Shown in pieces: positions 9,872-43,866 of a stretch of 64,000 nt of DNA. The stretch lies in contig NZ_LT896716.1 in assembly GCF_900187405.1 (NCBI RefSeq), positions 3,658,753 to 3,722,752 on the forward strand, read 5' to 3'. The notes beneath the pieces were generated by a model. The model was given only the letters and a program-made list of their open reading frames with translations. It made no database searches and was not told where the DNA came from. Both the position numbers and the translations under genes were made by a program. The DNA is from Geobacter sp. DSM 9736. GTDB lineage: Bacteria > Desulfobacterota > Desulfuromonadia > Geobacterales > Geobacteraceae. Numbering within the stretch: position 1 is the stretch's first letter; each line of letters opens with the position of its first letter.

Positions 9872-9899
9872 CAGAAGTGCATACATTGTTCTTTCTGAG

Positions 9900-9926
9900 C
9901 CCCCGAACGCTTCGGGGGTTTTTTTT
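9900..9926 (+). terminator. Intrinsic terminator after the two-component pair
   Basis: An 8-bp perfect stem (CCCCCGAA/TTCGGGGG) with a 3-base loop is followed directly by eight T residues. It lies 28 bases after the response regulator stop and separates it from the cytochrome-locus genes. Confidence 0.9.
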
Positions 9927-10083
9927 GCCGGGGGTACGGCAGATCTGCCAAGGTACAGAAAAAGAGAGCGGCGTGGCCGGGACTGGGCATCTTGATTGCA
10001 TTTGTCCTGGGTAATCTTCGCAGCACGACTTTTATGAACTATACGGTCTGCAAAAATCTCCAATAGTTTCGGAGGGATATAAA

Positions 10084-12873
10084 ATGGGACTCAGCTCACC
10101 GAAAAACCTCGCAACACTGGTCATCTCGCTGGCATTGACGGTTATTTCACTGCCTGCAGTATCGTTTGCCGGCCCGCCAGTAATTGCGCCTTCAAGCATC
10201 CGTGTGCTTACGGATGGGGTGAAGACGCCTCTTGGCGTGGCGCTGGACGGCGAGGGTAACATCTTCGTGGCGGATGCCGGCCGACGCGGCGTCGTGCGCT
10301 TAAGCAAGTTCGGTGTGCCGACGATGTTTATAAAAACCGTGGGGGTTCCTCAGCGGGTTCTGGTGAAGGATGACGGGAACATTCTCGTTTCCCAGGGCAA
10401 TCAGGTTATTGAGTATAACAATAACGGCAGTGAGGTCCGTCGGCTGACGGGTGGCGATCTCAAGTTCGCAAACGGTATCGCCGTTCACCCGGTCACTAAG
10501 GAGATTCATGTTGTCGACAGCGGAGCCAAGCTTGTAAAGGTTTTTGCGTCTGACGGAAGCTATGCCAACAAGAGTTATGGGACGAACATTGCTCCTCCGG
10601 AGCCGACCCGTCCCGGTTATGTTGATTTTCTGATGCCGACGGACATAGTTCTTGTTGATGAGAGGCCTGGCGGAGGCCCCTTGCGTAGTATCCGATTTGC
10701 GGTCGCCGATACGGGTGGCGGCAGGATAGCTATCTTCGACGGTTCGGGGGTCATTCAGAGCGTGATCGGCAGGTTTGGCGTCAACATGAATGAATTTCTG
10801 ATGCCTCAGGGTATTGCGGTCGAGTACACTGATGGTGCGGCGGCGGACAGGGTCGTGGAGAGGTTTTATGTAGTCGATTCCTATCACGGCGTACAGGTTA
10901 TGGATGCTTCCTGGTTGTCGCAGGGGTTTGTCGGGCGCTACGGGACTGGCACGGGAAACCTGATCAATCCGGCGGCGGCAGCGTTTGACGTTGCAAACAG
11001 TCGGCTCATTGTCTCCAATGGCTTCGGCAACGTTACCATGTATCCAGTTGATGGCGGCAGTAATCCTGTGGCCAGTGACGTGACCCCTCCTCAGTTCGAG
11101 ATTCTGGTGTCAGCCAATAACGTAAGCGTGCCCGACATAACCATTAACGGTACCCGTGAGGGGGCCGATGTAACTCTTCGTCTGACCATCAATACTGTCG
11201 CAAAGGTAGGTAAAACCGAGTATCTCGACGCCCAGAACTGGAGGACGGCCATCGCCGGTCTTGCGCCGGGGGCCAACGCAATTACGGCTGAGGCGGTTGA
11301 CCTTGCTGGAAATAAGACTACAAAAACCGTAACCATTTACTATACAAATTCTCCATTCCGCATTCAGAGCTGGGACGGCTTGACAAAGGTCAACCCCTAT
11401 CCGTTCGAGGGGGAGCGGCCTGTAGGCGCAACTGTTGATGTAAACCTTGCCGCTACGTGTTCCTACCCTACTGTAACTACCTGGAGATGTCTCGTTACCC
11501 TGGCTGAGGGGCCGGCGCCGACTCTCGTTCAGTTCACCGTCACCGATGGAGGAGCCTCCTCTACCGGGTCCGCGAGCATAATCCTTGATACGACTGCCCC
11601 GGACGTTACCGTCTATGCCGTTGGGGATGGGAAATCCACGAGTACCCAGGTTCACAACGTAATAGGCACTGTTGCTGATCCGCATCTTGATAAGGTCACT
11701 GTCGAGTTCAACGGTCAGGCTCCTCAGGATGTCGCGGTGGTCAATGGTGTCTTCAGTGTTCCGTTTGTTCTCAACAACACCGGCTCGGCGGGAAATATAT
11801 TCTCCGTCAAGGCTATAGACCGGGTTGGCAATGAAAGAACCACGCTGCCTCAGACGGTAAATCTCGATATGAATGCGCCGGTTGTTACTATTGATGCTCC
11901 GGCGGATGGAATAACCACCAAAACCTCCAGCCTTTCGCTCGCAGGAAGTGTGGATCGCGTCGCAACCTGCAAATTGGGTGGAGTGGATGCAAACGTTGAT
12001 GGCCTCAATTGGACGATTTCATCAGTTAACCTGGTGGAGGGATACAACAATCTCGTCGTCGAATGCACCGCAGGCGGAAAGACATCCGCTGTCAAGCGCA
12101 CAGTATATTACCAGCCGGCTGCGCTTGATCTGACTGTTGCGTCTCCAAAGCAGGATGCTGCCACCAAGGCAGCTTCCGTGGCCATTGCAGGCACGGTTGA
12201 CAGCACCGTCACTTCTCTCACTGCTACACTCAACGGGGTAAGCAGCAAGGTTAATGTAGACAATGGCGCCTTTACTTTTAATGCCCCCCTGTCAAAAGAG
12301 GGTACATATTCTGTTGTGTTTGCTGCTGCTGATGGGAGTGGAAAAACCTCTATCTCCACCAGAAGCGTAATTGCCGATACTACGCCCCCCGCTCTCGCCA
12401 CTCAGTATGCATACAGTGGTGAAACTCCGGTGACTAATGCTTCGGCTGTCTCCGGTACGGTTGAGCCTGGTGCTAAGGTCGTTGTCACTAACCTGAGCAA
12501 CCAGCCGGTCGGCACAGTATCCTATACCCACGGCGGATTCGATGCGGTGCTTGGGCAGAATTACGATCTCTTCAGTCTTGTTGTTGCCGCTACGGATCAG
12601 GCCGGAAACGTGACGACCAGGTCTGCAGCCCGGCCGGACGGCAATTGTAATGGAAGCGTAGGAGGTTCTGTCAACTCCGATGACGTGCTTGTGTGTCTCG
12701 ATATAGTCGCTGGAAGAGCGGCGACAAATCTCGAAGTTGCTCACTGCGACATCGGCCCGCTCCAGGCGGGGCAGATCAATCCGAGTGGTCAGATCGACCT
12801 TGCCGATTGTATTCTTACTCTGCGTAGGGCCAATACCCTTCCGCCGGAATGGTGGAAGAAGCCCACGCCGTAG
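10084..12873 (+). CDS. Secreted NHL-repeat / Ig-like / dockerin-like protein
   Basis: 929 residues with a signal peptide (hydrophobic core LVISLALTVISLPAVSFA, cleavage before GPPV). Residues about 35-330 are NHL-type beta-propeller blades (TPLGVALDGEGNIFVADAGRRGVV, ANGIAVHPVTKEIHVVDSGAK, QGIAVEYTDG). Residues about 345-830 are successive Ig-like/bacterial adhesion domains (IAGLAPGANAITAEAVDLAGN, TVYAVGDGKSTSTQVHNVIGTV, LSLAGSVDRVATCKLGGVDA). The last about 70 residues (DGNCNGSVGGSVNSDDVLV and GQIDLADCILTLRRA) resemble a dockerin calcium-loop pair with an insertion in the first loop. Start ATG 10084 follows GGAGGG. It ends 49 bases before the first cytochrome and is probably co-transcribed with it. 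Confidence 0.82.
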   Translation: MGLSSPKNLATLVISLALTVISLPAVSFAGPPVIAPSSIRVLTDGVKTPLGVALDGEGNIFVADAGRRGVVRLSKFGVPTMFIKTVGVPQRVLVKDDGNILVSQGNQVIEYNNNGSEVRRLTGGDLKFANGIAVHPVTKEIHVVDSGAKLVKVFASDGSYANKSYGTNIAPPEPTRPGYVDFLMPTDIVLVDERPGGGPLRSIRFAVADTGGGRIAIFDGSGVIQSVIGRFGVNMNEFLMPQGIAVEYTDGAAADRVVERFYVVDSYHGVQVMDASWLSQGFVGRYGTGTGNLINPAAAAFDVANSRLIVSNGFGNVTMYPVDGGSNPVASDVTPPQFEILVSANNVSVPDITINGTREGADVTLRLTINTVAKVGKTEYLDAQNWRTAIAGLAPGANAITAEAVDLAGNKTTKTVTIYYTNSPFRIQSWDGLTKVNPYPFEGERPVGATVDVNLAATCSYPTVTTWRCLVTLAEGPAPTLVQFTVTDGGASSTGSASIILDTTAPDVTVYAVGDGKSTSTQVHNVIGTVADPHLDKVTVEFNGQAPQDVAVVNGVFSVPFVLNNTGSAGNIFSVKAIDRVGNERTTLPQTVNLDMNAPVVTIDAPADGITTKTSSLSLAGSVDRVATCKLGGVDANVDGLNWTISSVNLVEGYNNLVVECTAGGKTSAVKRTVYYQPAALDLTVASPKQDAATKAASVAIAGTVDSTVTSLTATLNGVSSKVNVDNGAFTFNAPLSKEGTYSVVFAAADGSGKTSISTRSVIADTTPPALATQYAYSGETPVTNASAVSGTVEPGAKVVVTNLSNQPVGTVSYTHGGFDAVLGQNYDLFSLVVAATDQAGNVTTRSAARPDGNCNGSVGGSVNSDDVLVCLDIVAGRAATNLEVAHCDIGPLQAGQINPSGQIDLADCILTLRRANTLPPEWWKKPTP

Positions 12874-12922
12874 CTGAAGGTAGATTCACGTTGATAATCA
12901 CATGCTTTGCTAGGAGCGTGCT

Positions 12923-15900
12923 ATGAAAAGATCGGCAGTCCAATATCTGATTTTCGCCACTGTTCTGTTGCTGATGCCCTCTGTGGTCTTGGCTGCGGAC
13001 GGCCACGAGCTGCATCAGCCTTATGAATGTGCGACTTGTCATAAGGCAAGTACACACAAGGACCTGGGTGTCTCAGGCAGGTACTCGAACCTTTGTGTCG
13101 GTTGTCATAAGCCGGGCAACGTGGACCTCTATACAGGCGATTATTATGTTCGCTCATTCAGCTACGGCGACATGGCCAACCCGTACAAGAATGACCCGGG
13201 TCTCAACGGCAAGAAGGATGCCATGCAGCTTTCCCACAAGTGGGTAGGGTCCGATACGGTACCTGCTGCCGGAGCGGTTCCTCCGACTACCGATGCATTG
13301 AATCCCCGTACAAACGAAGGTTACGCGCTTCTCGGCACTGTCAGTTGTACGCGTTGCCATAACGTCAAACTCGTAAACACTAACAAGCCTTACCTGCGAG
13401 CCCAGATCGACGACATGTGTCTTGACTGTCACAGGCCCCGCAATACCACGAGTCACCTCGAAGGTACCCATCCGGTTAACGTCTCGTACACAAGCGCTAC
13501 ATCGAAGCCGAAGCTCTTCCCGGGTCAGTACTATCCGCGCCCCCTCAACTCAAACCCTGATAACAAGACTTCTCAGCTTGGGACGAAGGGGGGTAAAATC
13601 CTCTGTACCACCTGTCACGGCATCCACTATGTCGATTCCAATAGCCGCACCTATGATAATTTCTCCAGTCTCGTGATGGGACGCCTTTCCAGCTCACAGG
13701 GCAACCTGCTGAAGACCGATCTTCGCGGTGGAACGGCCAACGACAGAAACATCTGTACCAATTGTCACAAGTCTGCAGACGACCCTGCTAACACTCTGGC
13801 CAAGGTTAAGAATCACAACGGCAAGAAAAACCAGAACGTTCAATGTGCTGACTGCCACGGTGGCCATGTGGAGTACGATCCGGCAGATCCGACCGCGCTT
13901 AAAAACGTGTACCTCATCAACCGTTACATGAATATCTCCACTACCTATGGAGCGGTCAGGAACAAAAGGGTCCTTTTCCAGGATGTGAGCAACAAGAACT
14001 ACAACCAGGACCAGTATGGCGTCTGCGTAGCATGTCATGTGCCTACACCGCGAATTGAGCATACGAATAAGGGTGGCGTCTACTGCAACAAGTGTCACGT
14101 CCATGAAAAAGGATTCTCTGCCGACTGCACAACCTGCCACGGCTTCCCGCCGACAGCGTCTGACAAGGGTGGGGGACCTTACGGCTACGCAGATACCCCT
14201 TACGATTACAGCGATCCGCAATATGGTGTTTACAAAGATGAATCCAAGACGCCTCATGCAAAGCATGCGGCAGGAGGGAGTAGCAACTATTCATACGATT
14301 GTGCCCAGTGCCACAAAGGGTACACTCACATGGACGGCAAGTTCCAGGATGTTTTCATCGATCCTGTCGACACCCTGGCTGGATCGGCGGCGACCTACAC
14401 CAAGGCCTCACCCGGAACCTGTAACAACGTCTACTGCCACAGCAACGGTGCTCAACCTGCCGTTTACAAAAACCCCACGTGGGATCAGGGTAAAAACACC
14501 GTTGGCTGTAATTTCTGCCACGATGCCAAACCTACAACCAATGCTCACTCTCGTCACGTAGCAGGCGGGGCGCAGGGCAAGGCGTATGACTGCGAGGCTT
14601 GCCATAGCGCAACAGTGACCGGTTCCACCATTATCAAAGACAGGGCCAAGCACGTTGATGGACGTTTGGATGTAGTCGGTGCTGATGGATGTCTCGACTG
14701 TCATAACAATGCCGCTGGCGGTCCTCCGGCTGTGACACCCGACTTCAAGGTCAGCACGACCGGACAGTGCGGTTCCTGCCATGCCAACCCCCCAGGATAT
14801 GCTCACAATGCGCATATCTCCGCAGTATACGGTCCGGTCTTCGGTGCTGATACACTGGTAGCCTGTGCCAAGTGCCATACCTACACCGGCGAGCTTTCAG
14901 CGACACATGTCGATGGCAAACTCGACAACACTCTTCAAGCAGTGGCATGCGGAACATGTCACCCCGGCACCCTTCCCAACTGGAAAGGGATAGGCAGGGT
15001 TACCTGCGAAAGCTGTCACTCCGGCGGAACCCAGTCCGTTATTAACGGTATCGCTGCGCCTGCCAAGAAACTTTCTACCGAGTCGGGCCACGGAAAATTC
15101 GAAGGGGCCAGAAAGACCTGCGCCGACTGTCATGACGGTGATTCAGCCCATATCGATGCCAGTGCCTCCGTACACAGAAAACGCGTGTTCGACAACATGA
15201 CCGGCTTCAACAAGGGTTGTACTTACTGCCATAACGACGAGCAGAAGATCAAGGCCGGATGGACATGGCGTAACTACAGCAGTACCTACAAGATAAGAGG
15301 GTATGTCCCCTTCTACAATATGAGCACGCACTTCACCAAGAAGGGCGGAAGTGCGGTACCCAATGGTCAGGACATGGCTTGCTCGCAGTGTCATGATCTT
15401 CACGGCACTACCAACCTCTCCATGGTCAGGACCAAGATTGCTTACACAAACAGCACTACCTGGACCATCAGTTTCGCCAACAGATCCACGATCGGTGGAG
15501 GTGACGGGCCAGTCAACAAGGTAACGAACCGCGGTCTCTGCCAGGTCTGCCACACCAAGACCAAGTACTTCAGGGCCGGTGTAGACGAGACGGGGCATCC
15601 GGACCGCAACTGTTTCAGCTGTCATCCACATAATGCAAGAGGCGGGGCGTTCAGCCCGAGTGATGGTACCTGCGACACCTGCCACGGCTATCCGCCGATT
15701 CCGAAGAGTTCGGTCGTTGGTCCCGAGCAGGTAAGGGGCACTGCCCTCTTCAGGCAGACCTATGGGGTTGAGAACAACTTCATCAACGCCAAGTTCGAAG
15801 ACTACTCGGGTGGCGGCGGTGTCCATATGTGGCACGTCGACCCGGCTGCCAAAGCAAGCGACGGCTGGAACGCCTGTGCCATCTGCCACACCGGCGGAAG

Positions 15901-16129
15901 CATGACGAATACGCAGACTCACGTGATGAGAATGCCCCTCAAGCAGAACATCAGCAACGTAACGGTTAAAATAGATCCAAGGTGGCGCTTCAATGACGCC
16001 GTCCTGCCTACCTACACCGGGGCAAGGCTGGTGAATCCGCCTGAGGTCAACAAGACCGGCTCCTGCATCAGCGTCGGCTGTCACTTCAAGCCTACAGGAC
16101 TGATCGGTCCCTGGAGTGCTGATAGGTAA
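12923..16129 (+). CDS. Secreted multiheme c-type cytochrome, 27 heme motifs
   Basis: 1,068 residues; signal peptide MKRSAVQYLIFATVLLLM to VVLAA. I count 25 CxxCH motifs plus two CX4CH motifs (CNNVYCH mid-protein, CISVGCH at the C terminus), 27 in all. Spacing is irregular, with many free histidines available as distal ligands. There is no lipobox and no transmembrane segment after the signal, so periplasmic or extracellular release is expected. The C-terminal about 110 residues (FEDYSGGGGVH, NISNVTVK, then CX4CH-FK) are shared with the next cytochrome. ATG 12923 follows TAGGAG. A strong terminator follows the gene. Role inferred: long-range extracellular electron transfer. Confidence 0.9.
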   Translation: MKRSAVQYLIFATVLLLMPSVVLAADGHELHQPYECATCHKASTHKDLGVSGRYSNLCVGCHKPGNVDLYTGDYYVRSFSYGDMANPYKNDPGLNGKKDAMQLSHKWVGSDTVPAAGAVPPTTDALNPRTNEGYALLGTVSCTRCHNVKLVNTNKPYLRAQIDDMCLDCHRPRNTTSHLEGTHPVNVSYTSATSKPKLFPGQYYPRPLNSNPDNKTSQLGTKGGKILCTTCHGIHYVDSNSRTYDNFSSLVMGRLSSSQGNLLKTDLRGGTANDRNICTNCHKSADDPANTLAKVKNHNGKKNQNVQCADCHGGHVEYDPADPTALKNVYLINRYMNISTTYGAVRNKRVLFQDVSNKNYNQDQYGVCVACHVPTPRIEHTNKGGVYCNKCHVHEKGFSADCTTCHGFPPTASDKGGGPYGYADTPYDYSDPQYGVYKDESKTPHAKHAAGGSSNYSYDCAQCHKGYTHMDGKFQDVFIDPVDTLAGSAATYTKASPGTCNNVYCHSNGAQPAVYKNPTWDQGKNTVGCNFCHDAKPTTNAHSRHVAGGAQGKAYDCEACHSATVTGSTIIKDRAKHVDGRLDVVGADGCLDCHNNAAGGPPAVTPDFKVSTTGQCGSCHANPPGYAHNAHISAVYGPVFGADTLVACAKCHTYTGELSATHVDGKLDNTLQAVACGTCHPGTLPNWKGIGRVTCESCHSGGTQSVINGIAAPAKKLSTESGHGKFEGARKTCADCHDGDSAHIDASASVHRKRVFDNMTGFNKGCTYCHNDEQKIKAGWTWRNYSSTYKIRGYVPFYNMSTHFTKKGGSAVPNGQDMACSQCHDLHGTTNLSMVRTKIAYTNSTTWTISFANRSTIGGGDGPVNKVTNRGLCQVCHTKTKYFRAGVDETGHPDRNCFSCHPHNARGGAFSPSDGTCDTCHGYPPIPKSSVVGPEQVRGTALFRQTYGVENNFINAKFEDYSGGGGVHMWHVDPAAKASDGWNACAICHTGGSMTNTQTHVMRMPLKQNISNVTVKIDPRWRFNDAVLPTYTGARLVNPPEVNKTGSCISVGCHFKPTGLIGPWSADR

Positions 16130-16152
16130 ACCTGTTACATAGATGGAATAGT

Positions 16153-16187
16153 GAGGCATGCGCCAGGATGGGCATGCCTCTTTTTTT
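16153..16187 (+). terminator. Intrinsic terminator after the 27-heme cytochrome
   Basis: A 9-bp perfect stem (GAGGCATGC/GCATGCCTC) with a 10-base loop is followed by seven T residues, 23 bases after the cytochrome stop. It makes the next cytochrome a separate transcription unit. Confidence 0.92.
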
Positions 16188-16944
16188 GTATTGAAGCAGG
16201 AGTCGGGAATGGTTGTGTCGATCAAGATTAGCGCGATGCGGACATTTCGAGTCTTTTCGTTCGTGTGCATTGCCGGATTAGGTCGTACCGGGATCTAGTT
16301 CTGATCACAGCAGATGCCTGTCATAACCAGTCGCATGCCAACCTGTTTTAGCTGCTCCCGGCTATATAATAGACGTTGAGGCTAGCCCATGATGCGTTAT
16401 TCCACCGAGCGATATGGCAGTTGCCGTATCTATCATGTGCAGGTAGGCCTGGATCAAACGCCGGGTGTGCTTGTTAAAATTTCACGTTTTTCGGCGTTAA
16501 ACAGGTTCTAGTCTGCAGCATAATATCGAGCATGGAGAGGTAAGCCTAGCGAAGAACGCCCTGCGCAGACACTCCCTCAAAGCGACAGTAATAGGTTTAA
16601 AAAGAAGATGTGAATGGGCTCATTTCTCCAAAATAATTTTAAGATCTGCATATTTCCATGTAGTTGGTATGCATATTTGCATATGTACTTGTCCTGAGAA
16701 GGATGGAACAGTCAAATCCCCAATGATTTAACAGTGATGCGATTAGCTTTAAATATTATTGTGCAGCTATTTCGCGGTTTACTGGGTTAAAAGGCCAAAC
16801 AATTTGAGCTGGAGTAAACCGTACGGAACTGTATCTGCTGGTGCAGCGTGCCAGCTAAAGAGATTATGTTTGAGAACCGAGAAGCTGATAGGTATCGCAG
16901 TGAAAAGAGACTCGCAGGTAGATTCGATAAAGGAGGAGATTATT
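16188..16944 (+). promoter_or_regulatory. Long non-coding leader/control region of the 35-heme cytochrome
   Basis: About 757 bases with no convincing gene. A perfect TATAAT lies at 16365-16370, but without a clear -35 box. A 9-bp hairpin (GATATGGCA/TGCCGTATC, one G-U pair) is at 16411-16430. An AT-rich patch with three GCATAT repeats and the palindrome ATGCA-TATT-TGCAT is at 16647-16685. An 8-bp stem (CGGTTTAC/GTAAACCG) encloses 31 bases at 16775-16821, and a short GCTGG/CCAGC hairpin is at 16837-16855. I compared it by eye with the GEMM c-di-GMP/cGAMP riboswitch core and did not find it. It may be a structured leader or carry regulator sites. Confidence 0.4.
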
Positions 16945-19900
16945 GTGAGCAGCTATTTTAGGAGGATGGCGGCATTAGCGCAGGTCGGATTGTTGGCCTT
17001 GTGTCTAGTTGTCGCAATTTCAGGTGCAGCACAGGCCGCGCAGTACAGCATGACCTGTGCCTCTTGTCACGGGATGCCCCCGCTGGACGACACCACCCGA
17101 AATATCGGTACGGGTGCATTCCAAGGGAATCACCAGACTCACCAGCCGGCAGTTGCTACTGCTACTGATTGCGCGATGTGCCACAACGTCACAGGATTCC
17201 ACAATGGGCACATGGATGGGCGGATCAATTTACAGCCGAATGTAAATAATTCTCCGGCTACGGCTCAATACAGAGTAGGTGGGGCGGCTGTTGCATTCAA
17301 GAACCAGACATCTGTGCCTGTTCTTGGTTCCTGTTCCAATGCAAACTGCCATTTCGAGAGACAAACTCCTGTCTGGGGCAGCCCGAAACTGGGCGCACGC
17401 TCAGAAGCCGTCTGTTCCACTTGTCACGATGCAGTTCCGACCACGGATGCTCATGCAAAGCACACTGCATTCATTGCCTCCAAAAACTCAGTCCCTGCGG
17501 CAGATACCTGTAATTCCTGTCACGTAACCAATTATGGTGATGCAGCGCATGCCTTCGAGGTTGGGCGGGCTATCAAGGTGCAACTCGCTTCTGGAAAGTA
17601 TAGCACCGCCACCAAGGCGAGCTACCTGCCATCCCAGCAGTCTTCAAGGGTCGCTGGTGATTGTAGCAACCTTTACTGCCACAGTAACGGTGCAGGAAGC
17701 TTCACCAAGCCGAACTGGGGAACTCCGGCATCTGGAGCCTGCGGAACATGTCATGCTAATCCTCCGGTGACGTCGACCCACCAGACCTTCGGCGCAGCAG
17801 CAAATAACTGCTCGACCTGTCACATCGACACGGACGCAGCCCACGTAAATACAAAAATCGATAAATCGGCACGGCTGACCAGCGCGCCGCACTTCAATAA
17901 CGTTACCACCGGCTCATACCCGGCATCGTACATCACCTCGAGATCTGCCTGTGCGGACTGCCACAACACCACGGCCGGCAATCAAACGATTCGTCAGCAG
18001 TGGGCCGGCTCAGGCCATGGCACCACTACCGCTTCACCCTGGGTTTCTTCTGACTTCAAGACGCGCTCAGGCTGCGTACAGTGTCACACCACCACAGGCT
18101 TCGTAGCCTTCTCTTCGGCCAAGAAGACCTCCGCATGGGGTGTTGCTTCCGACAAGACGAAGGAAACCATCACTTGCCGTGCCTGCCACAGCGACGAGGC
18201 CACAGGTGCTGTGCGGATGGTTACTCCGGCTAAGACGTTCAGCAGCTATACTGCGTTCCGCAATGCCGACATGCGTACCTCCAATATCTGCGCCGACTGC
18301 CACAGCGGCAGGGATGCAGCCAACCGCAGAGTTGCCGTAATGACAAACTTCAGTACGGCTATGAGCTATGGCGCACATTATCTGCCCGCAGCGGGTACGG
18401 TACAGGGGATAACCGGCTACGCATTCCCCGGCCGCAGCTACACTCTTGCAGACAACAGCCACAGCAAGGCCGGGACGCTCAATGCCAACAACACCGGCAC
18501 TGACGGCCCCTGCGTTACCTGCCATATGACCGCTACCGATAAGCACACGTTCGGTGCTGTCACTACTGATGCCGGGGGTGCAATCACCGGTATCAAGACC
18601 ACCATCTGTACGAACTGCCACAGCAGTTCGCTTCCTGCAGCAACGCTCGATGCCAAGCGTGTAGCATTCAACAACGCCATGGATGTCCTTAAGGCAGCCT
18701 TTGCCGACAAGGGGATCATCTGGAACAGCACATCAAAGACCTTCAACACCACTACCGGTGGAACTGTCATCAAGTGGGGACTTAAAACCGGCAACGAGGC
18801 AGCTAGAAACAAGTACGGCGCGGCTTACAACTATCGTCTGTTCTATGCCGACCCCGCTGCCTACACCCACAACCCGGCGTATGCGCGTCAGTTGATAATT
18901 GATTCTATCGACGCAGCATATAATAACGGGATTGTTACCGGCGACATTACCGCAGCGCTTGCCGACCTGGTAAACAGAGGCAAGATCACACAGGTCCAGG
19001 CCGACAGCGTCGTGGCCTACAAGAGCCCGACGGCCAGCTGTAACGGCTGTCACGGAAATCCGCCGGCCACCACAACCCACACCGCGTTCGGCACTGCAGC
19101 AAATACCTGCTCGACCTGCCACGTATTCACCGGCGTGAACGGCGAGACGCACCTCAACGGCACGGTCAACAAGACGGCACTGCTTACGAGCGCACCGCAC
19201 TTCAACAACCTGACGGGAGCGAAGTTCCCGGCCTCGTACATCACCACCCAGTCTACCTGCGCTGACTGCCACAACACCACTGCAAACAACAAGACGATCC
19301 GTCAGCAGTGGGCCGGTTCCAGCCACGGGGATACCACGGGGCTGGCCTGGATCAACTATGACTTCAAAACCAGGGCCGGCTGCGTACAGTGTCACACCAC
19401 CACCGGTTTCGTAACCTTCTCGACTGCACGTAAGACCAGTGCCTGGGGCGTTGCTTCTGACAAGTCGAAAGAAACCCTTACCTGTCGTGGCTGCCACAGC
19501 GACGTAGCCTCGGGTGCGGTACGCAACGTCACCCGCTCGAATCCTTTCGACGTAGAAACCACCTACCAGAACGTCGAAATGTCCACGTCGAACATCTGTT
19601 CCAACTGCCACAGCGGCCGGAACAACGGCGTATCTATTCAGTCCAAGGTCGGGACCTCCGACTTCACCAACCTGGCCTTTATTTCGCCGCACTACCTGTC
19701 GGCTGCAGGTTCGGTACAGGGCAAAACTGCTTTCCACTTCCCCGGCCGCACCTACACTGGCTTTGCGGACAACGCTCACGGCAAGGTCGGCATGGGTAAC
19801 GCCAACGGTACCGGCACCACCGGCCCCTGCGTCGCCTGTCACATGACCAGTGGGGAGAAGCACACGTTCGAGCCGATATCTACCGCCTCCAACGGTGCGA

Positions 19901-22197: not shown

Positions 22198-22208
22198 CAG
22201 GGCAGTGA

Positions 22209-22245
22209 GTGGAGGGGGGCCTGTGTCCCCCTCCACGTCTTAATT
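22209..22245 (+). terminator. Terminator-like hairpin after the 35-heme cytochrome
   Basis: A perfect 10-bp stem (GTGGAGGGGG/CCCCCTCCAC) begins 11 bases after the stop codon. The tail (GTCTTAATTT) is only moderately T-rich, so termination may be incomplete. The remaining gap to the next gene (to 22474) is AT-rich and holds an ACCTG/CAGGT small inverted repeat but no gene. Confidence 0.65.
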
Positions 22246-22474
22246 TCGAAAGTTATGTGGCTAAGTTAAGTAATTCACAATTCATGTCGAAGATATTGCT
22301 GTACCTGTTTGTGAGGCAGGTCACAGTTTTTACTTTTTCCCGCATTTACAATGGTTTTAGATAATCACATCAATGGTTGGAGATATTACAAATTTTTAAT
22401 TGTTTTTTTGTTGAAAAGTCTCCGTTCAAATATTAAAAACGTACAAATGTTTTTCTATGTGCAAGGAGTATGAG

Positions 22475-25189: not shown

Positions 25190-25209
25190 GTTTGGGAGGA
25201 AATTACATC

Positions 25210-28200
25210 ATGGGTAAGAAACTGGGCAATTCTATAAAACGTATGAGCTGGCAGGCGAAAGCCGGGCTTGTAACGCTTTTCACTCTCCTCCTCACTGTTG
25301 GAATGTATCAGGGATGGTACGGCATCCTCACTTCTGAAGCAGCGCCTGTGGGAGGAAATGCTTGGACCTCGGTATATGCAAACCAAGCGTATCCGAACAA
25401 CTCCAATTACACTCTGACCATACCTTCGGGCCAGAACCGCCTGCTAGTAGTCGCAATCGGTACTACGCGAACCACCGCCGGTGCTGTAACCATCGCTACT
25501 CCTACCTTCGGCACCCGTCCGATGACGCTCGCCGCTGGTGATGCCGGGAGCACGACGACTTGGAATCATTCGGCACTTTACTACTTGACGGAAGCAGATC
25601 TCGCAGCCGCATCAAACTCAACACTCAATCTGACCATCAGTGGCGGAACGGCCTATTATAACTATGTTTATTACCGGGTCTACACAGGAGTAGATCAGAG
25701 TGCTCCCATTACCGCAGCCCGAAACTACAACAGCAACTCCACATCCAGCAGCAGCGTTGGTCCTTTCAATCCGACCCTTACAGTCGGCGCAAATGATCAA
25801 GCCATTGAGATCGTAAACCTTGCAAGAAACGCATCAGGTACAACTGCACCGAGTATCTCAACCTGGGCTACCGGTTGGACAACCGCCGGCGTAGCGCCCA
25901 CCGCGCGCACTACTTCAGGACCCACTGCACGGCTATACATCCGGGATCGGGCTGTCCCGACCGCTGTCACCAATGACGGTTCCACCCACACCGCCAGCAC
26001 TGCCAGTTCATGGAAGTCGATGACCGCAATGAGTCTGAAGGCTGCGCCTGCCTCTACAAGTCTCACAGTTTCGAACAATACTGCTATAGCAACAGGGAGT
26101 AAACTCGATAGCGATGAGGGCGTCCTGATGCAGCGCATTCAGGTGACAGGCTCGGGCCAGCTAGAGCTTAACTCCCTTACAATGAACAATACCGGAACTG
26201 CCACTACGATCGGCGCTGCAGAAATCTATATCTCTTCCTCCTCTCAAACAACGCTTCCTGCCGATGCTGTCCTGCTCGGCAGCGCTACCAACTGGGGAGG
26301 TGCCTCCACCCAAATCAGCCTTACCGGTGGAACACAGACAAACAGGACATTGGGAGGTACGCAGCCGCTGACCAAATACCTCTACATTGTGTATGACATG
26401 TCAATTGGACAGGCAGGAAGCACTGTCGGTTCCCGTGTGACTGCAGTCGGTGTTGCATCCCCCAACACGGGGGCAACAGGCCTGAGCCTCAGTTCCAATA
26501 CCCTTACTCTTACCCGCTCCGGCAACCTCCTTTCGGTCACCGGAAACATTCCCGGCCGCACCACAGCCAAGGATTCCGACGCCGCGGTCGTGATGCAGCA
26601 CTTCCAGGTTGACTGCGACGCTGCATTCGATAACGCACTGCAGATCGATTCCGTTACCATCGAGGATCTGGGAACCGCAGCACTCGTCGATTCCGTCAAG
26701 GTCTATATCAGCTCGGTTGAGGAAGCCGATGCTACTGTGCTGCCAGCTTCAGCAAAACTGATAGGCGCTATTGGAGAATGGAACAAGACTTCCACGGTGA
26801 TAGATTTCAACGAACATGATCCCGGCACTACAGCCGACAGAACCGTCATAGCCAATGGGACGTTGAACGGTGGACCCAAGTACATCTATATAGTCTACAG
26901 CATGCATTACGATGATGTATTTGTCGCCGGCAAGACAGTTCAGTCGAAAGTGACTGCAGTGGGAGTCGCTTCTCCGGATGGCGGTGCAAACAACCTCAGC
27001 CTTCTCTCAAACACCATCACGCTCACCCGTGGAACCTGGTCCAAGATTACCAGCTGCGGTGGTTGTCACGACACGGCCAATATCCAGGATGGAACTGCTC
27101 GTAACGTTCCCGATGGTAAATTCATCGGCTCTCACAACAAACATACCAATGCACTGGCAATGGACTGTATTGTCTGCCATGCCAAACCACCGATCAACAA
27201 ATTCAATCACGCCGACGGATTTATCAACCTTACAGGAGCTGTAGGGAAAGGTTATTCCAAAACCAAAAAGTTTCAGGTCTCGAATAATCCGACAATGGGA
27301 ACATGCTCCGGTCTTTACTGCCACAGTAACGGTACATCCGTAGCTACCGGAAATGTTCAGCCTATCCAGACTCCTGCTTGGGGGGGAAGTACCAATTGCA
27401 GCAGCTGTCATGCATTCCCACCGGCATACACAAGCGGGACACCTAAAGCAAATACGCATTCCGCCAGTGGTCATAATATCGGCTGCGACAGATGCCATTA
27501 CTCGGTTACCACCAATGGAACTTCCGTAACAAATGGTGCAAATCACGGTAATAATGCCTATGATGTAAGCCCGAATACCGGGGCCGGCATAAGTTTCACC
27601 TATACATTTGCACCTTCAGGAGGCACATGCTCCTCCAATGCGTGCCACGGCAACGTCGCTTGGGGCGGTTCCCTCGGCTGCATAGAGTGTCATAACAAGA
27701 CTATCACGCGAACCAAAGGGCGGCCCGGGACCACTCTCGCTAATGTCTCAGCCGAGTTCGGACTGGCATGGGGGCACAAGAAGGCTGGGCGAGGGGCAGT
27801 AACGAGCGCCGACTGCATCGTGTGCCACCTTGAGGGTGTTTCGTCAACAGGCAGAACCTCCTCGTACCATCAAAACGGCAACATCGATCTGAGAGACCCT
27901 GACGGCACCGGTGAGGCACAGATTAAAGATGTTTCCGGTGTAAATGCTTTTGCGTTCGCACGGTTTTCAACATCATATGCAGCTGGAACAAGGACCTCGA
28001 CAGGGCACAACTCCAATACCGACATCGCCAACGTGATAACTCAGAAATTCTGTCTCGCCTGCCATGATGCCGATGGTGCTACCAACACTACCGCCCGTTC
28101 GGGTGCCAATGCTACGCAGTACATGCCATGGAACGGTGTTCAGCTCGGTGCAAACTATACGGCAACCAATGGCGCTACCGGGACCCAGGGGCTCGTTAAC

Positions 28201-28917
28201 GTGAAGTCACAGGTCGCTACGACGAACTCTTCGAAGCATCCGGTACTCGGGCCGCTCAATCGCGATTACCCGACGGCAGCAAGGCTCCAAGTTCCGTACA
28301 AGCCGACAGGAAGCCGCGGGACTTCCGGCACGCTGTCACAGGGCGTAGTTATCAACTGCTTCGACTGCCACAACATCCCCGGCAACTCGCCGCTTACGAA
28401 ACGTACCGTGACGGCGCACGGTAATGCCAATACGGTCCGCGGCGTGCCTGCCGTGTTCGGGACAGCCTCGGTGTCTAACCAGGCGTCACTTTGTCTGATC
28501 TGTCACCTCGGATACGACACTGTAAGTACCTACGACCACGGTACCGGCTCTGCGGCCGGGACCAGCGGCACATTCGACAGGTCCGAGAAGAGTGCGTATA
28601 TCAAGTGGGGCTGCAACCTCTGCCACAGCAGTACCTATACTTCGACTGCCACCGCAGTACGTCCCGTCAGGGCCATGGACGTACACGGTTCCAACGTCGT
28701 GCCTACCGGCCAGGTCGCCAAGCGTTCCGGCAGCAGGTGGGCCAGCGGTGGCGGACCGATCGCTTTCATCCGCAACAGCGATCAGTTTAGCACTCACAAC
28801 CCGAGAAGGATCGGTACGACGACCTATACACCGGAGTGTATGGGCGGTAGTTCCGGTAAATTCAGTGCCTGCAACAGAAGCTCCGTAGAAAACTACGCTC
28901 CAGGCGGAACATTCTAG
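25210..28917 (+). CDS. Cytochrome with large beta-rich N-terminal region and 12 heme motifs
   Basis: 1,235 residues from ATG 25210 behind GGGAGGAAA. A long signal peptide or anchor (AGLVTLFTLLLTVGMYQGWYG) precedes about 560 residues without cysteine-heme motifs. These comprise a beta-rich adhesin-like domain (about 45-280) and two related repeats of about 160 residues, each ending in VTAVGVASP(N/D)-G-A-LSL-SNT(L/I)TLTR. From residue about 610 onward there are 10 CxxCH and 2 CX4CH motifs. The first heme module (CGGCH, CIVCH, CSGLYCH) matches the N-terminal module of the two upstream cytochromes. The heme-free region could dock the cytochrome to a surface, matrix or partner; no specific ligand is recognisable. 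Confidence 0.88.
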   Translation: MGKKLGNSIKRMSWQAKAGLVTLFTLLLTVGMYQGWYGILTSEAAPVGGNAWTSVYANQAYPNNSNYTLTIPSGQNRLLVVAIGTTRTTAGAVTIATPTFGTRPMTLAAGDAGSTTTWNHSALYYLTEADLAAASNSTLNLTISGGTAYYNYVYYRVYTGVDQSAPITAARNYNSNSTSSSSVGPFNPTLTVGANDQAIEIVNLARNASGTTAPSISTWATGWTTAGVAPTARTTSGPTARLYIRDRAVPTAVTNDGSTHTASTASSWKSMTAMSLKAAPASTSLTVSNNTAIATGSKLDSDEGVLMQRIQVTGSGQLELNSLTMNNTGTATTIGAAEIYISSSSQTTLPADAVLLGSATNWGGASTQISLTGGTQTNRTLGGTQPLTKYLYIVYDMSIGQAGSTVGSRVTAVGVASPNTGATGLSLSSNTLTLTRSGNLLSVTGNIPGRTTAKDSDAAVVMQHFQVDCDAAFDNALQIDSVTIEDLGTAALVDSVKVYISSVEEADATVLPASAKLIGAIGEWNKTSTVIDFNEHDPGTTADRTVIANGTLNGGPKYIYIVYSMHYDDVFVAGKTVQSKVTAVGVASPDGGANNLSLLSNTITLTRGTWSKITSCGGCHDTANIQDGTARNVPDGKFIGSHNKHTNALAMDCIVCHAKPPINKFNHADGFINLTGAVGKGYSKTKKFQVSNNPTMGTCSGLYCHSNGTSVATGNVQPIQTPAWGGSTNCSSCHAFPPAYTSGTPKANTHSASGHNIGCDRCHYSVTTNGTSVTNGANHGNNAYDVSPNTGAGISFTYTFAPSGGTCSSNACHGNVAWGGSLGCIECHNKTITRTKGRPGTTLANVSAEFGLAWGHKKAGRGAVTSADCIVCHLEGVSSTGRTSSYHQNGNIDLRDPDGTGEAQIKDVSGVNAFAFARFSTSYAAGTRTSTGHNSNTDIANVITQKFCLACHDADGATNTTARSGANATQYMPWNGVQLGANYTATNGATGTQGLVNVKSQVATTNSSKHPVLGPLNRDYPTAARLQVPYKPTGSRGTSGTLSQGVVINCFDCHNIPGNSPLTKRTVTAHGNANTVRGVPAVFGTASVSNQASLCLICHLGYDTVSTYDHGTGSAAGTSGTFDRSEKSAYIKWGCNLCHSSTYTSTATAVRPVRAMDVHGSNVVPTGQVAKRSGSRWASGGGPIAFIRNSDQFSTHNPRRIGTTTYTPECMGGSSGKFSACNRSSVENYAPGGTF

Positions 28918-28939
28918 CATCTGACAGTGCAGATGCGAC

Positions 28940-28972
28940 AAAAGCCCCGCTTGCCAAAGGCGGGGCTTTTGA
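28940..28972 (+). terminator. Intrinsic terminator after the cytochrome cluster
   Basis: An 11-bp stem (AAAAGCCCCGC/GCGGGGCTTTT) with a 9-base loop, 23 bases after the cytochrome stop. The T tract is part of the stem. It separates the cytochromes from the lipoprotein/ResB/CcsA genes. Confidence 0.85.
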
Positions 28973-29041
28973 TTTATCCTCGTAAGGGTGTTCAGCCCCA
29001 GCAGTTCCCATTTTTATTTCAATGTTTTTAACTGAGGCAGA

Positions 29042-30346
29042 ATGAATCCGAAGATCGTATGGTTTCCCGTCATCCTCCTGTTGCTTGCGTTATCCGCGTG
29101 CAGCAGGACCGCCGGAAAGGCTTCACCCTCACCATTCAATTCGAAATCGACAAAGCTTGCCACGCTCCCTCCTGGGTACGAGATAGGAGATATATTTTTC
29201 AGCCCCAACGGCCACGGAGTTGCCGTATTTGCTGGCCGGGAAGGACAGTCTGTAGTATCGCTCAATGGACGGCTTGGCAAAAGCTATGCGGCAGTACTTA
29301 CCCCGGTTTTCAGGCAAGGCGCTGATGATTTTGCGCACGTTGCCGTTGAGGGCAGCAAGCAGCGGGTGTTGGTAAACGGAGATGAGGGTAAGGCATACGA
29401 CTCGGTCGGAAAACCCGTTTTTGCATCTAATGGCCGCATCATCCATGAAGCACGTGTCGGGGAGAAGTGGGTCATAGTCAGGAACGGCGGGGAAAGCTCC
29501 CAGTTCTCATCTGAGAACCCGGGCATAGTAGTCGCCTCTGACGGTGCACGATTCGCCTATGTAGAGCAGACGCCCGATCATAAGAAGTCTTTTGTTCGCG
29601 TGTGTTCCAGTGATATGGGAACCTGTTTCAAGGGGAAAGAGTATGACTGGATCAGTGCAATTGAGACTGACAGATCTGGGACCCGTCTCTTCTATACCGT
29701 CAGGAATGGGGCAAGCAAAGCCCTCGTCACTACTGATCCCCGTCAGAAGGACTTTTCAGAGGAGGAATCCCCCTGGTATATTGATATTCTTTTTGCAGGG
29801 ATCTCGGATGGCGGTGGTCACGTCGCTTATTTTGCCCAGCGGAAAGGGCGGACTGTCCTGATCAGGGACGGCCACGAAGTGGCCCCCGCCCCTGACCAGA
29901 ACATTTTCAATATTGCTGTTTCTCGGACAGGCAGGACAGTTTATTCGGCCTTGATTGATGGGAAGGTTGCCGCATGGGTTGACGGCATCAGGCAGCGAGA
30001 AGCTTACGATGAAATCAATGAACCTTCATTCAGTCCCGACGGCATTCACTTTGTTTATGCTGTAACGCGTGGGGAAAAATCGTTCATTGTGGTGGACGGA
30101 ACCGAAGGCCCGCAGTACGACAAGGTGGTTGGGCCGAAATTTTCACCGGACGGCTCGCGTCTAGTCTATCGTGCTCGTAGAGACGGGCAGCGTTTTGTGG
30201 TGATTGCAGACCTCAAGGGGGCTACCCTTCGGGAGCTTCCTCAATACGAAGCGGTCTGGGACACTTCTTTCTCCCCTGACGGGAAGCTTGTCGGATACGG
30301 CGTGAGACAGGGGAACGATCTCTGGTGGATGGTCGAAAAGCTTTAG
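29042..30346 (+). CDS. Lipoprotein with TolB-like (PD40) beta-propeller repeats
   Basis: 434 residues. The signal ends in a lipobox (LLLLALSAC, C20), so the mature protein is lipid-anchored in the inner or outer membrane. The body is a run of WD40/PD40-like blades, with repeated phrases such as GDIFFSPNGHGVAVFAG, EPSFSPDGIHFVYAV, GPKFSPDGSRLVYRARR and DTSFSPDGKLVGYGV. No catalytic motif is visible. It stands between the cytochromes and the heme-attachment genes, and a scaffold or assembly role for the cytochromes is possible but only inferred from position. Start ATG 29042 follows GAGG. Confidence 0.78.
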   Translation: MNPKIVWFPVILLLLALSACSRTAGKASPSPFNSKSTKLATLPPGYEIGDIFFSPNGHGVAVFAGREGQSVVSLNGRLGKSYAAVLTPVFRQGADDFAHVAVEGSKQRVLVNGDEGKAYDSVGKPVFASNGRIIHEARVGEKWVIVRNGGESSQFSSENPGIVVASDGARFAYVEQTPDHKKSFVRVCSSDMGTCFKGKEYDWISAIETDRSGTRLFYTVRNGASKALVTTDPRQKDFSEEESPWYIDILFAGISDGGGHVAYFAQRKGRTVLIRDGHEVAPAPDQNIFNIAVSRTGRTVYSALIDGKVAAWVDGIRQREAYDEINEPSFSPDGIHFVYAVTRGEKSFIVVDGTEGPQYDKVVGPKFSPDGSRLVYRARRDGQRFVVIADLKGATLRELPQYEAVWDTSFSPDGKLVGYGVRQGNDLWWMVEKL

Positions 30347-30415
30347 AACGCGCATTATCAGCATGGATTGCAGCTCGCGCACACATTCAGTGCTGCTCAT
30401 ATTCGTAAGGTTCAC

Positions 30416-31564
30416 ATGATCGACAACAATCAACCGGCCTACACAGAACAGGAAAAAGATTCCGAAACCTATCCCGTCCAGCCCCGATATCACCCTATCC
30501 ATAAAATACCCCGCGTGATATATGATTTTCTGGCTTCCGCAAGGCTTGCTATGGCCTTGCTCCTGGTTATCCTCTCCTGCAGCGTCGCCGGGGTGACTAT
30601 CTGGCGGGGAGAGACGGCATGGCAGCTTATCTTCAGCACCGTCTGGTTCAATTCGATTCTGGTCCTGCTGGTTGTAAATGTCGCCTGCTGTTTTTTCGGG
30701 AGGATCTGGGGGCGGCGGATCACCATAGTGTCCTTTGGGATGATCCTCTTTCATCTGAGCTTCGTTGCCATGTTTGCCGGCATAGTCTATAACAGCCTGT
30801 TTTTCTTCGACGGCATTTTGCGGCTGACCGAAGGGGAGACTCTGCGCAATGGGGACCCACAGAGTTATGACACGATCCGTTACGGGCGCTTCTTTTCATT
30901 TTCGAAACTCAAGGGAGAGACCACCCTCATCAAGATGTACAAGGGGTACAGGGTAGGGGATGAGGACAAAAGGGTAGCTTATGAAGTCGCTGTAGGGGAA
31001 GGGGCTTCGAAAAAGCAGCAGGTTATCTATGTTACAAAGAATCTATCTTTTAACGGGATAAAGTTTTTTCCTGAAAAGGAGGGGTATTCGCCTCTCGTTC
31101 TGCTTGCCGACGGAAGAGGCAGAGAAATTTATGGAGCATACATCCCGCTCCAGAGCCTCAGGCAGGCGGATGACTCCTATTTCTACACCACCGGAACCAA
31201 GGACGGGCCCGGTGCGTTCCTCTATCCGCAGGAGCCGCTGGGAAAGCCGCTTTTCGATTTGCAGGTGACATATCTGCCTTCGAAGCTGGACGACCGTGGA
31301 GGAGAGGTCACCCTCAGCATATGGCCCATTGACGGATCACAATCTGGAGGGAAGCCTATTGGGGGGGGGAGAATACCAATTAATTCGAGCCTGGAAGCCG
31401 CCGGGCACAAATTCATGTTTAAAGAGCTGCGTTACTGGGTCGGCATGAAGGTGCGTTACGATCCGGGAAAGCCGTTTGTGCTGACGAGTCTCTGGATAGG
31501 ACTCGCCGGGATGCTCATTACCACTGTCGGGCGCATGATGCGAAGCGGGGCGCGTAAAGCCTGA
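30416..31564 (+). CDS. resB: ResB-family cytochrome c biogenesis protein
   Basis: 382 residues from ATG 30416, which follows GTAAGG; an upstream in-frame start at 30368 has no clear ribosome site. In system-II maturation ResB (CcsB/Ccs1) works with CcsA to deliver heme to CxxCH motifs on the outer face of the membrane. Features: a cytoplasmic N-terminus, hydrophobic helices at about 45-65, 80-100 and 112-135, a large extracytoplasmic domain (LRLTEGETLRNGDPQSYDTIRYG to LEAAGHKFMFKELRYWVGMKV) and a final helix (SLWIGLAGMLITTVGRMM). It is followed by its natural partner ccsA. The pair is probably devoted to the cytochromes encoded just upstream. Confidence 0.88.
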   Translation: MIDNNQPAYTEQEKDSETYPVQPRYHPIHKIPRVIYDFLASARLAMALLLVILSCSVAGVTIWRGETAWQLIFSTVWFNSILVLLVVNVACCFFGRIWGRRITIVSFGMILFHLSFVAMFAGIVYNSLFFFDGILRLTEGETLRNGDPQSYDTIRYGRFFSFSKLKGETTLIKMYKGYRVGDEDKRVAYEVAVGEGASKKQQVIYVTKNLSFNGIKFFPEKEGYSPLVLLADGRGREIYGAYIPLQSLRQADDSYFYTTGTKDGPGAFLYPQEPLGKPLFDLQVTYLPSKLDDRGGEVTLSIWPIDGSQSGGKPIGGGRIPINSSLEAAGHKFMFKELRYWVGMKVRYDPGKPFVLTSLWIGLAGMLITTVGRMMRSGARKA

Positions 31565-31640
31565 GCGGCTTTTTCAGTTCAGCCCTGTTTGAAACGCATA
31601 ATGCGCATGCAGCGCTGCCATTCCATTATAAGGAGCCTCT

Positions 31641-32465
31641 ATGAAACCCGAATTCATGTTCTTTTGGACTGCTGTCGCACTCTATGGCGTCAGCGCGTTC
31701 AGCTACATCTTCGGCATGATGGCGAAGCAGGACAAGCTGTTCAAGATCGGCCTCTTCAGCGCGTTGGCCGGTTTCATCCCGCATACTGTTGCCATTGGCC
31801 TTCGTTGGGCAGCGACGAGCATCAGTCCTTTCATTGCAACGTCGGAATCGCTTTCTCTCGGTGTCTTCATGGCGGTGCTGATATTCCTTGCTCTTGAGTT
31901 CAGCCCCCGCAAAGTTATGCCGATGGGGGTGCTGGTTATGCCGATATCGTTCGTTCTCATGGGATGGGCAGGAACGCTGATGGAGGAGGTTGCAAGCACT
32001 ATCGCTCCGGCGCTGCAGAGCGGCTGGATCTGGGCCCACATAGTCGGAGCATCTGCCGGTTTCGGCGCAGTTCTCGCGGCGGCAGGACTCGGATTGATGT
32101 ACCTCCTCAAGGAAAAGAACTCCGGAGGCATGTATGCAAAGCTGCCGGATTTAAAGGCGATGGATGAGCTATCCTACAGATTCGTTGCAGGGGGCTTCAT
32201 CATGTATGGCCTCATGATGGTTTCAGGGTGTTTCTGGGCTAACCAGGTGAAAGGGAACTACTGGAACTGGGATCCGGTCGAAGTATGGTCTCTCGTTTCA
32301 TGGCTCACCTACGGAATCTACCTCCACTTGCGCGTCACCTTCGGCTGGCGTGGTAAAAGGCTCGCCTGGTACGCGCTTCTCGCTCTGGTAGCGATGATCG
32401 TCAGCTACTGGGGCATACCTTTCACAGTGGAAACTTTCCACTCGGGATTCCGCATCGAACATTAA
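31641..32465 (+). CDS. ccsA: CcsA-family heme exporter / cytochrome c synthase component
   Basis: 274 residues, highly hydrophobic with about eight membrane helices. It carries the tryptophan-rich heme-handling motif of the family, GNYWNWDPVEVWSLVSW. Candidate axial histidines are in PHTVAIGLRW, AHIVGASAG and the C-terminal TFHSGF region. CcsA moves heme across the membrane and, with ResB, attaches it to apocytochromes. Start ATG 31641 lies behind AAGGAG. The gap to resB is 76 bases on the same strand, so one operon is likely. Confidence 0.92.
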   Translation: MKPEFMFFWTAVALYGVSAFSYIFGMMAKQDKLFKIGLFSALAGFIPHTVAIGLRWAATSISPFIATSESLSLGVFMAVLIFLALEFSPRKVMPMGVLVMPISFVLMGWAGTLMEEVASTIAPALQSGWIWAHIVGASAGFGAVLAAAGLGLMYLLKEKNSGGMYAKLPDLKAMDELSYRFVAGGFIMYGLMMVSGCFWANQVKGNYWNWDPVEVWSLVSWLTYGIYLHLRVTFGWRGKRLAWYALLALVAMIVSYWGIPFTVETFHSGFRIEH

Positions 32466-32542
32466 GGCAATGGGTCGCGCCTTATACCGGGGAAGGTAAA
32501 TCGGCAGCTCGGCTGTACATGAGTAAGAGGGGGAGTATCCAG

Positions 32543-33043
32543 TTGACCAAGATCGTCGTTATGTTCATCCTTGTGTTTGCCGCGCTGCAGGTCGGTGCAT
32601 GTTCGAGGAATGAATCGGAAACCTTGACTAATAAAAAAGGAACACCTGCGTTTCATGGTGTGAACGATACCTCAGCAGGCTCTTCCCAAGGTTTTGTAGC
32701 AATCATAAAGGGTGCAACCCTTGCAGATTACAGAACGGCAACAATCGGTAAGGCTACCGACGATTACCGCTACTTCACCCGTAGGGAGTGGAGTGAGACA
32801 AGGTCCGAAAACGGCAAGGTATATGTGGATTTCTCCGGCTGGTTCGATGGCAAGAGGGTGATCAATGGACTTGCTGCTGACGGAGTCGAAGTGAAGTTCG
32901 TCATCGAGCCTACCGGTGAATTCTATGTTGCCATGGTGTCCGGTCTTCAGGGCAATGCGGGTGCAGGGATCACACGACATCCACTGGCGCAGATCAAGCC
33001 GGTGCTGGAATCCATCTACAGCAACAAGCCGATCACCCTCTGA
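32543..33043 (+). CDS. Small lipoprotein of unknown function
   Basis: 166 residues from a TTG at 32543, chosen because GGGGAG lies just upstream and the resulting N-terminus (TKIVVMFILVFAALQVGAC) is a compact lipoprotein signal. The ATG at 32519 lacks a ribosome site. The lipobox is VGAC. The mature part (FVAIIKGATLADYRTATIGKA, REWSETRSENGKVYVDFSGW, VEVKFVIEPTGEFYVAMVSG) is alpha/beta with no recognised family. It follows ccsA after 77 bases and precedes a radical SAM gene by 32. Association with cytochrome maturation is positional only. Confidence 0.65.
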   Translation: MTKIVVMFILVFAALQVGACSRNESETLTNKKGTPAFHGVNDTSAGSSQGFVAIIKGATLADYRTATIGKATDDYRYFTRREWSETRSENGKVYVDFSGWFDGKRVINGLAADGVEVKFVIEPTGEFYVAMVSGLQGNAGAGITRHPLAQIKPVLESIYSNKPITL

Positions 33044-36207: not shown

Positions 36208-36558
36208 ATGAAGATTAAGAAATCGGTTGTCATACTGAATGGTTTTATACACGACTTCGCAGCGGGTATTTGGCTGGCGGCGATTGTCGTCATTGGCTGG
36301 CTCCATGCGGCTCAGCAGACTCACCCGTTGGCGGCAGAGGTTCTCTCCCTGCTCGAAAAGCGGATGTTCTGGATGAGCGTGGTGTCCGCAGTCCTCATCA
36401 TGGCCACCGGAGCGGGAAGAACCTTCACCTACGTAGACAACTGGTATGGTGAGGATGCCGAGCGCACCCGTCGTCGTGCCCTGATCGTCAAGCATGTTGT
36501 GCTCTTCGCCGCCTATGGGACCGGGTATCTTTGGGTGTGGGAAAAGGTATTCCATTGA
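36208..36558 (+). CDS. Small membrane protein, about three helices
   Basis: 116 residues. Hydrophobic helices lie at about 18-34 (GIWLAAIVVIGWLHAA), 52-70 (MFWMSVVSAVLIMATGAGR) and 92-112 (VVLFAAYGTGYLWVWEKVF). Conserved-looking residues include H15 and the FTYVDNWYGEDAERTRRRALIVKHV loop. I do not recognise a family with confidence; CopD-like or DUF2269-like integral membrane proteins have a similar layout. The gene begins 23 bases after the LuxE-like gene and precedes the second radical SAM gene, so it is likely part of that operon. Confidence 0.6.
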   Translation: MKIKKSVVILNGFIHDFAAGIWLAAIVVIGWLHAAQQTHPLAAEVLSLLEKRMFWMSVVSAVLIMATGAGRTFTYVDNWYGEDAERTRRRALIVKHVVLFAAYGTGYLWVWEKVFH

Positions 36559-36697: not shown

Positions 36698-36699
36698 AA

Positions 36700-43779: not shown

Positions 43780-43866
43780 GTGTGCTCTCGCTGAGTAAAT
43801 TTTTACACTGAAGGGTCACTGTAAAGAAATCTTCAGGTGGTGTCAAGGTGGGAGAGGGCTGGGGCT

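Follow-up and report, generated by a model that had tools for sequence, protein, structure and literature searches.

The heme synthases NrfI and CcsA1 of Wolinella are fused CcsBA proteins. They are dedicated to the motifs CXXCK and CX15CH and stand beside a general synthase as extra system II enzymes, each for particular cytochromes (PMC12285233). For the ResB/ResC pairs of Geobacter, co-transcription with multiheme cytochromes has been predicted; they are perhaps dedicated to these cytochromes, the purpose of the several pairs being left to be determined (PMC2700814, 2009). Here we describe a locus within a window of Geobacter sp. DSM 9736, i.e. the whole stretch of 64,000 nucleotides that was analyzed. 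It resembles the known Geobacter clusters (e.g. GSU2891-GSU2890; PMC2700814) in joining a ResB and ResC/CcsA-like pair to several multiheme cytochromes, and differs from them by larger cytochromes, a separate block structure and a cassette of radical-SAM, LuxE-like and BchE-like genes (Table 1). A cytochrome cluster with its own ResB/CcsA pair has been known since 2009, and the link to a radical-SAM cassette is the new part; the terms radical SAM and BchE are absent from PMC2700814, and in open-licence full texts, for part of them among the top matches only, we found no description of a radical-SAM or BchE linkage to Geobacter or to cytochrome maturation. In contrast to the fused Wolinella proteins, ResB and CcsA are separate here, and specificity for unusual motifs is a feature of the Wolinella enzymes.

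The porin-cytochrome (Pcc) conduits of Geobacter (omcB and ext clusters; PMC6148476) likewise cluster multiheme cytochromes with lipoproteins. Such a conduit has a porin, whereas no outer-membrane beta-barrel or porin family match was found at this locus in Pfam and NCBIfam, a barrel outside these libraries being possible; this speaks against the self-contained surface conduit suggested by a sequence-only reading of the region. No sequence relation to the solved filament cytochromes of the OmcS, OmcE and OmcZ nanowires was found for C27, C35 and C23, which gave no phmmer match among PDB sequences, although low-complexity heme proteins may escape phmmer. The OmcAHG operon of G. sulfurreducens is under riboswitch control (PMC6456294); no riboswitch was found at the present cytochrome locus, and control of that type was rejected, as GEMM had no match even at a relaxed threshold.

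We consider it somewhat better than an even bet that the locus is a composite of two separately inherited parts, probably working in extracellular electron transfer, in which the synthase and the radical-SAM cassette serve the giant cytochromes.

Table 1. Features of the cytochrome locus, in window coordinates
Feature	Position	Strand	Basis or remark
Histidine kinase, one CXXCH (CYTCH) in sensor part	6974-8491	+	HisKA/HATPase/HAMP; weak Mcp40H-20 heme-sensor match
NtrC-type sigma-54 response regulator	8501-9871	+	NCBIfam
Terminator-like hairpin 3' of regulator	9897-9921	+	
Sigma-54-like promoter site GGGCATCTTGATTGC	9985-9999	+	8/10 consensus matches
Secreted NHL-repeat/Ig-like protein	10084-12873	+	Pfam NHL, Glucodextran_B, Big_13
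C27, 27-heme cytochrome	12923-16129	+	25 CX2CH + 2 CX4CH
C35, 35-heme cytochrome	frame 16759-22197; gene 16945-22197	+	32 CX2CH + 3 CX4CH
C35 octaheme module 1	17686-18984	+	
C35 octaheme module 2	18985-20280	+	19047-20135 identical to part of module 3
C35 octaheme module 3	20281-21576	+	20343-21431 identical to part of module 2
Terminator-like hairpin 3' of C35	22209-22236	+	12-pair stem
C23, 23-heme cytochrome, CX4CH-rich	22457-25189	+	16 CX2CH + 7 CX4CH
C12, 12-heme cytochrome	frame 25135-28917; gene 25210-28917	+	10 CX2CH + 2 CX4CH
Terminator-like hairpin 3' of C12	28939-28971	+	14-pair stem; between C12 and PD40-ResB-CcsA unit
PD40 propeller lipoprotein (lipobox)	29042-30346	+	Pfam PD40; weak TmcD-family match, far below cut-off
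ResB, short, divergent; likely start 30416	30368-31564	+	Pfam ResB
CcsA, dedicated clade	31641-32465	+	Pfam, NCBIfam; PDB 7s9y alignment; tree
Small lipoprotein	32519-33043	+	lipobox by eye; conserved adjoining CcsA
rSAM, B12-binding radical-SAM enzyme	33076-34413	+	
LuxE-like acyl-protein synthetase (ligase)	34703-36184	+	PF04443
Small membrane protein, conserved H15 and H96	36208-36558	+	
BchE-like B12-radical-SAM enzyme	36670-38208	+	TIGR02026 399.9 bits

Two conserved gene blocks and their control

The source genome is a single contig of 3.96 Mb, and the search covered 48 genomes of its family. A contig search with a single protein as query gave no match and an alignment as query gave matches; the alignment-based search of a separate genome collection found relatives in Geobacter, Geomonas, Geotalea, Pelotalea, Geomobilimonas and Citrifermentans. 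The front block, with the order transketolase halves, small protein, kinase, regulator, NHL and C27, is syntenic in eight relatives (G047, G004, G006, G008, G009, G029, G030 and G031), some of which add a 4-heme gene, and the genes after it are other giant cytochromes of different size. The back block, C12-PD40-ResB-CcsA-lipoprotein-rSAM, is found in 13 genomes of genera g6, g7 and g11 that were chosen solely by CcsA identity (62-79%); some of them have extra genes between ResB and CcsA, others a contig end or a missing member.

Genera g3, g5, g14 and part of g7 have the kinase-regulator-NHL-27-heme block without this type of 12-heme/PD40/ResB/CcsA block. G033 has an NHL-C27 block at 4.03 Mb and the back block 3.4 Mb away, at 0.60 Mb, and G030 has the two on separate contigs; the window therefore joins two units that exist separately elsewhere. 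A partial union occurs in G022, where a C27-like protein precedes the back block, and G095, from another family, has the regulator, NHL protein, 27-heme protein, C12-like protein, CcsA and rSAM all together. Judged by gene order, each block is conserved and the union of both is occasional, not unique. The sequence-only reading had taken the region for a self-contained locus whose products form one assembly. A conserved order is supported by the eight and the 13 genomes, as is a maturation pair belonging with the cytochromes, whereas the single assembly is not supported; homologues are neither scattered without co-occurrence nor always together.

The heme-motif kinase and sigma-54 regulator noticed ahead of the cytochromes agree with the domain families and the CYTCH motif. 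The kinase CXXCH is kept in 8/8 syntenic relatives, and the regulator shares 83-91% identity with its counterparts there. Between the regulator and NHL genes lies the sigma-54-like site, and the same interval holds a site with 8-10 consensus matches in all eight same-order relatives (shuffle frequencies 0.5-8% each), i.e. in 9/9 genomes with the front block. This double conservation, of site and heme motif, is good evidence for a predicted route from a heme sensor through the NtrC-type regulator to a sigma-54 promoter. The gene behind this putative promoter had been read as propeller/dockerin-like; its NHL and Ig-like domains are recovered by Pfam, whereas the dockerin-like C-terminus is seen by eye only, with no Pfam match at E 0.01.

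Giant cytochromes and putative transcription units

Our motif recount of the window ORFs gives 27, 35, 23 and 12 heme motifs for the four cytochromes, 97 in sum (14 of them CX4CH), exactly the numbers first counted by eye. None of the other ORFs of at least 100 aa in the whole window has more than two, so that the motif density of the four is not due to chance. The likely start of C35 is a GTG at 16945, preceded by AAAGGAGGAG, within a longest frame from 16759; that of C12 is an ATG at 25210, followed by a long heme-free N-terminal part. The heme register of C27 is fixed, with all 27 motifs kept in 18/18 aligned sequences at ~35-53% identity, and ~24 more histidines beyond the motifs are conserved in nearly all of them; in a wider set of close homologues the motif total is mostly 27. 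Such a register with extra histidines would fit bis-His hemes, and hence electron transport rather than catalysis.

Of the 1,296 nt of modules 2 and 3 of C35, 32 differ between the two, all of them close to the ends, and a stretch of 1,089 nt is identical, which points to a recent duplication or gene conversion. The identical stretches form a perfect direct repeat with divergent ends. Relatives have a single such octaheme module, in proteins of ~1,160-1,240 aa, and C35 evidently grew through tandem octaheme modules. The C-terminal part is common to C27 and C35 and the N-terminal part to C35 and C23, the likeness exceeding the heme motifs. AlphaFold2 gave poor models both for C27 (mean pLDDT 41, from 37 sequences) and for the octaheme module (mean pLDDT 46, from 9 sequences). 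The same genome has a second giant-cytochrome locus (G000:C1 3085000-3112000; L056, L057) with an NHL protein, ResB and a CcsA of another clade; its cytochromes have 36 and 46 motifs in 1,578 and 2,519 aa.

The three terminator-like hairpins divide the region into several units; those after the C35 and C12 genes make one operon improbable. Their positions suggest the units kinase-regulator, NHL-C27-C35 (with an interval of 815 nt between C27 and C35), C23-C12, and PD40-ResB-CcsA-lipoprotein-rSAM, the last perhaps extending further.

A separate CcsA clade and its radical-SAM neighbors

The ResB and CcsA genes adjoin multiheme cytochrome genes on the same strand. ResB shares 54-61% identity across syntenic loci, and CcsA aligns to the solved CcsBA (7s9y) with the WWD region retained, as are four histidines that, by eye, are candidate heme ligands, so that the heme-attachment pair proposed from the letters looks intact and functional; the two lipoproteins named with it both have a lipobox. 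The tree places the CcsA of the window apart from the canonical clade, in a clade of 32 with full support. Many rows of this clade were chosen through rSAM, which inflates its size; the unbiased measure is that 13/13 genomes chosen by CcsA identity have rSAM beside CcsA. Several relatives (L188, L186, L182) have between ResB and CcsA polytopic proteins with TPR-like C-termini, glycosyltransferase-like by eye and variable in presence, a possible link to glycosylation. A PD40-like match also lies in a 13,772-aa open frame (L110, G029:C1:3695999-3697054), perhaps a giant gene, perhaps a masked run.

The gene run was first taken to end at 33043, and it extends further, the rSAM gene beginning 32 nt downstream. 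A 289 nt gap separates rSAM from the LuxE-like gene, so that the cassette may not be one transcript. The closest named family of the last cassette protein is BchE, the anaerobic Mg-protoporphyrin monomethyl ester cyclase, with which it has B12-binding and radical-SAM domains in common; unlike BchE, it has no chlorophyll context at this locus and scores below the family cut-off (481.35 bits; next family 166), which makes a porphyrin substrate a lead rather than a finding. Between genera the cassette proteins are highly similar (rSAM 75-90%, BchE-like 77-82% in the main clade, LuxE-like mostly 78-85% identity), compared with roughly 35-59% for C12 and 30-49% for PD40.

In nine single-contig genomes, 11/11 rSAM copies lie within 10 kb (all within 6.4 kb) of a non-canonical CcsA, with 0.08 expected; 6/6 LuxE-like copies lie within 10 kb (0.05 expected) and 12/14 BchE-like copies within 25 kb (0.29 expected), as against 0/8 of the more distant rSAM homologues. 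Other CcsA clades have rSAM or BchE-like neighbors too. Among the 48 genomes, BchE-like genes and at least 10 CX4CH domains occur together in 25, one without the other in 3 and 3, and neither in 17; this figure ignores kinship, and the co-occurrence holds within one genus as well (P 0.003).

Elsewhere in the window, a GPMC-system gene pair is encoded on the minus strand at 40978-44661, with an MBL-fold hydrolase (NF038231) and a sigma-54 regulator (NF038230) both above cut-off; in G095, a 933-aa regulator similar to NF038230 follows the rSAM gene. A SAM riboswitch at 45888-45989, also on the minus strand, lies upstream of a MetX-like homoserine acyltransferase gene.

Proposed working of the locus and alternatives

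In the composite locus that we favor, the c-heme sensor kinase and its NtrC-type regulator would act on the sigma-54 promoter to turn on the secreted NHL protein and the 27-heme cytochrome. Downstream would follow more giant cytochromes, of varying size and number and with modules in common, and then the back part: the 12-heme cytochrome, the unit from propeller lipoprotein through ResB, CcsA and small lipoprotein to rSAM, and the LuxE-like, membrane and BchE-like genes. ResB/CcsA, as a dedicated system II synthase, would attach hemes to the nearby giant cytochromes; once exported, these would conduct electrons through extended chains of bis-His hemes, either on the cell surface or outside it. 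The three cassette enzymes may tailor heme or cytochrome, the cassette probably helping to make or finish the cytochromes through a modification of porphyrin, polypeptide or a surface partner. We favor this explanation because of the front block in eight relatives and the back block in 13, the sigma-54-like site (9/9), the C27 register (18/18), the functional-looking CcsA of a separate clade with rSAM beside it (13/13), the cassette linkage, and the correlation of CcsA gene number with CX4CH domain number across the 48 genomes (Spearman 0.76, kinship not corrected).

A serious contender, to which we give somewhat less than even chances, is that the cassette belongs to a neighboring lipid, small-molecule or electron-shuttle pathway that has regulation or ecology in common with the cytochromes and no direct role in their maturation. 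B12-radical-SAM families include lipid enzymes, and the hopanoid and ladderane models score weakly in the same family search as the BchE-like protein; the 289 nt gap would fit as well. In several f2 genomes the stretch retrieved around CcsA-lipoprotein-rSAM lacks a giant cytochrome, and in G035 the LuxE-like and BchE-like genes lie at the start of a contig where no CcsA is seen; both observations count against a direct cassette role in cytochromes. However, the linkage is seen for several separate CcsA clades, rSAM follows the lipoprotein gene closely and all 11 copies lie near a non-canonical CcsA, and in G018, G024 and G013 BchE-like genes adjoin giant cytochromes with no CcsA in view.

An unlikely reason for the ResB/CcsA pair is that CX4CH motifs require a synthase to themselves, in the manner of Wolinella NrfI and CcsA1 with CXXCK and CX15CH (PMC12285233). 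The Spearman trend and this precedent speak for it, but total heme load explains the trend equally well. CX4CH giants occur in G038 and G010 with no extra CcsA genes, and G036 has extra CcsA and no CX4CH domains; these mismatches rule out a strict rule and also count against the composite explanation. A bolder idea, which we rate as quite improbable, is that the heme of giant Desulfuromonadota cytochromes is tailored or their polypeptide modified, the BchE-like, rSAM and LuxE-like proteins altering porphyrin or cytochrome and the dedicated ResB/CcsA clade handling the altered cofactor. The least probable explanation is that of the sequence-only reading, in which the four cytochromes together form one surface conduit or filament: their genes are adjacent, three have terminal modules in common and the C27-like and C12-like combination recurs in G022 and G095, but the blocks are apart in G030 and G033, partner cytochromes vary in number, size and heme content, terminator-like hairpins stand between the units, no porin family match was found at the locus and the models are poor.

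The near-identical octaheme modules of C35 would exemplify the lengthening of a heme wire via tandem copying. The conserved linkage of the ResB/CcsA pair to two B12-radical-SAM enzymes, one of them BchE-like, makes the question of what such pairs are for testable, and the cassette could give BchE-like proteins a role in bacteria without a chlorophyll context. If the tailored-heme idea were true, it would represent a previously undescribed branch of c-type cytochrome maturation.
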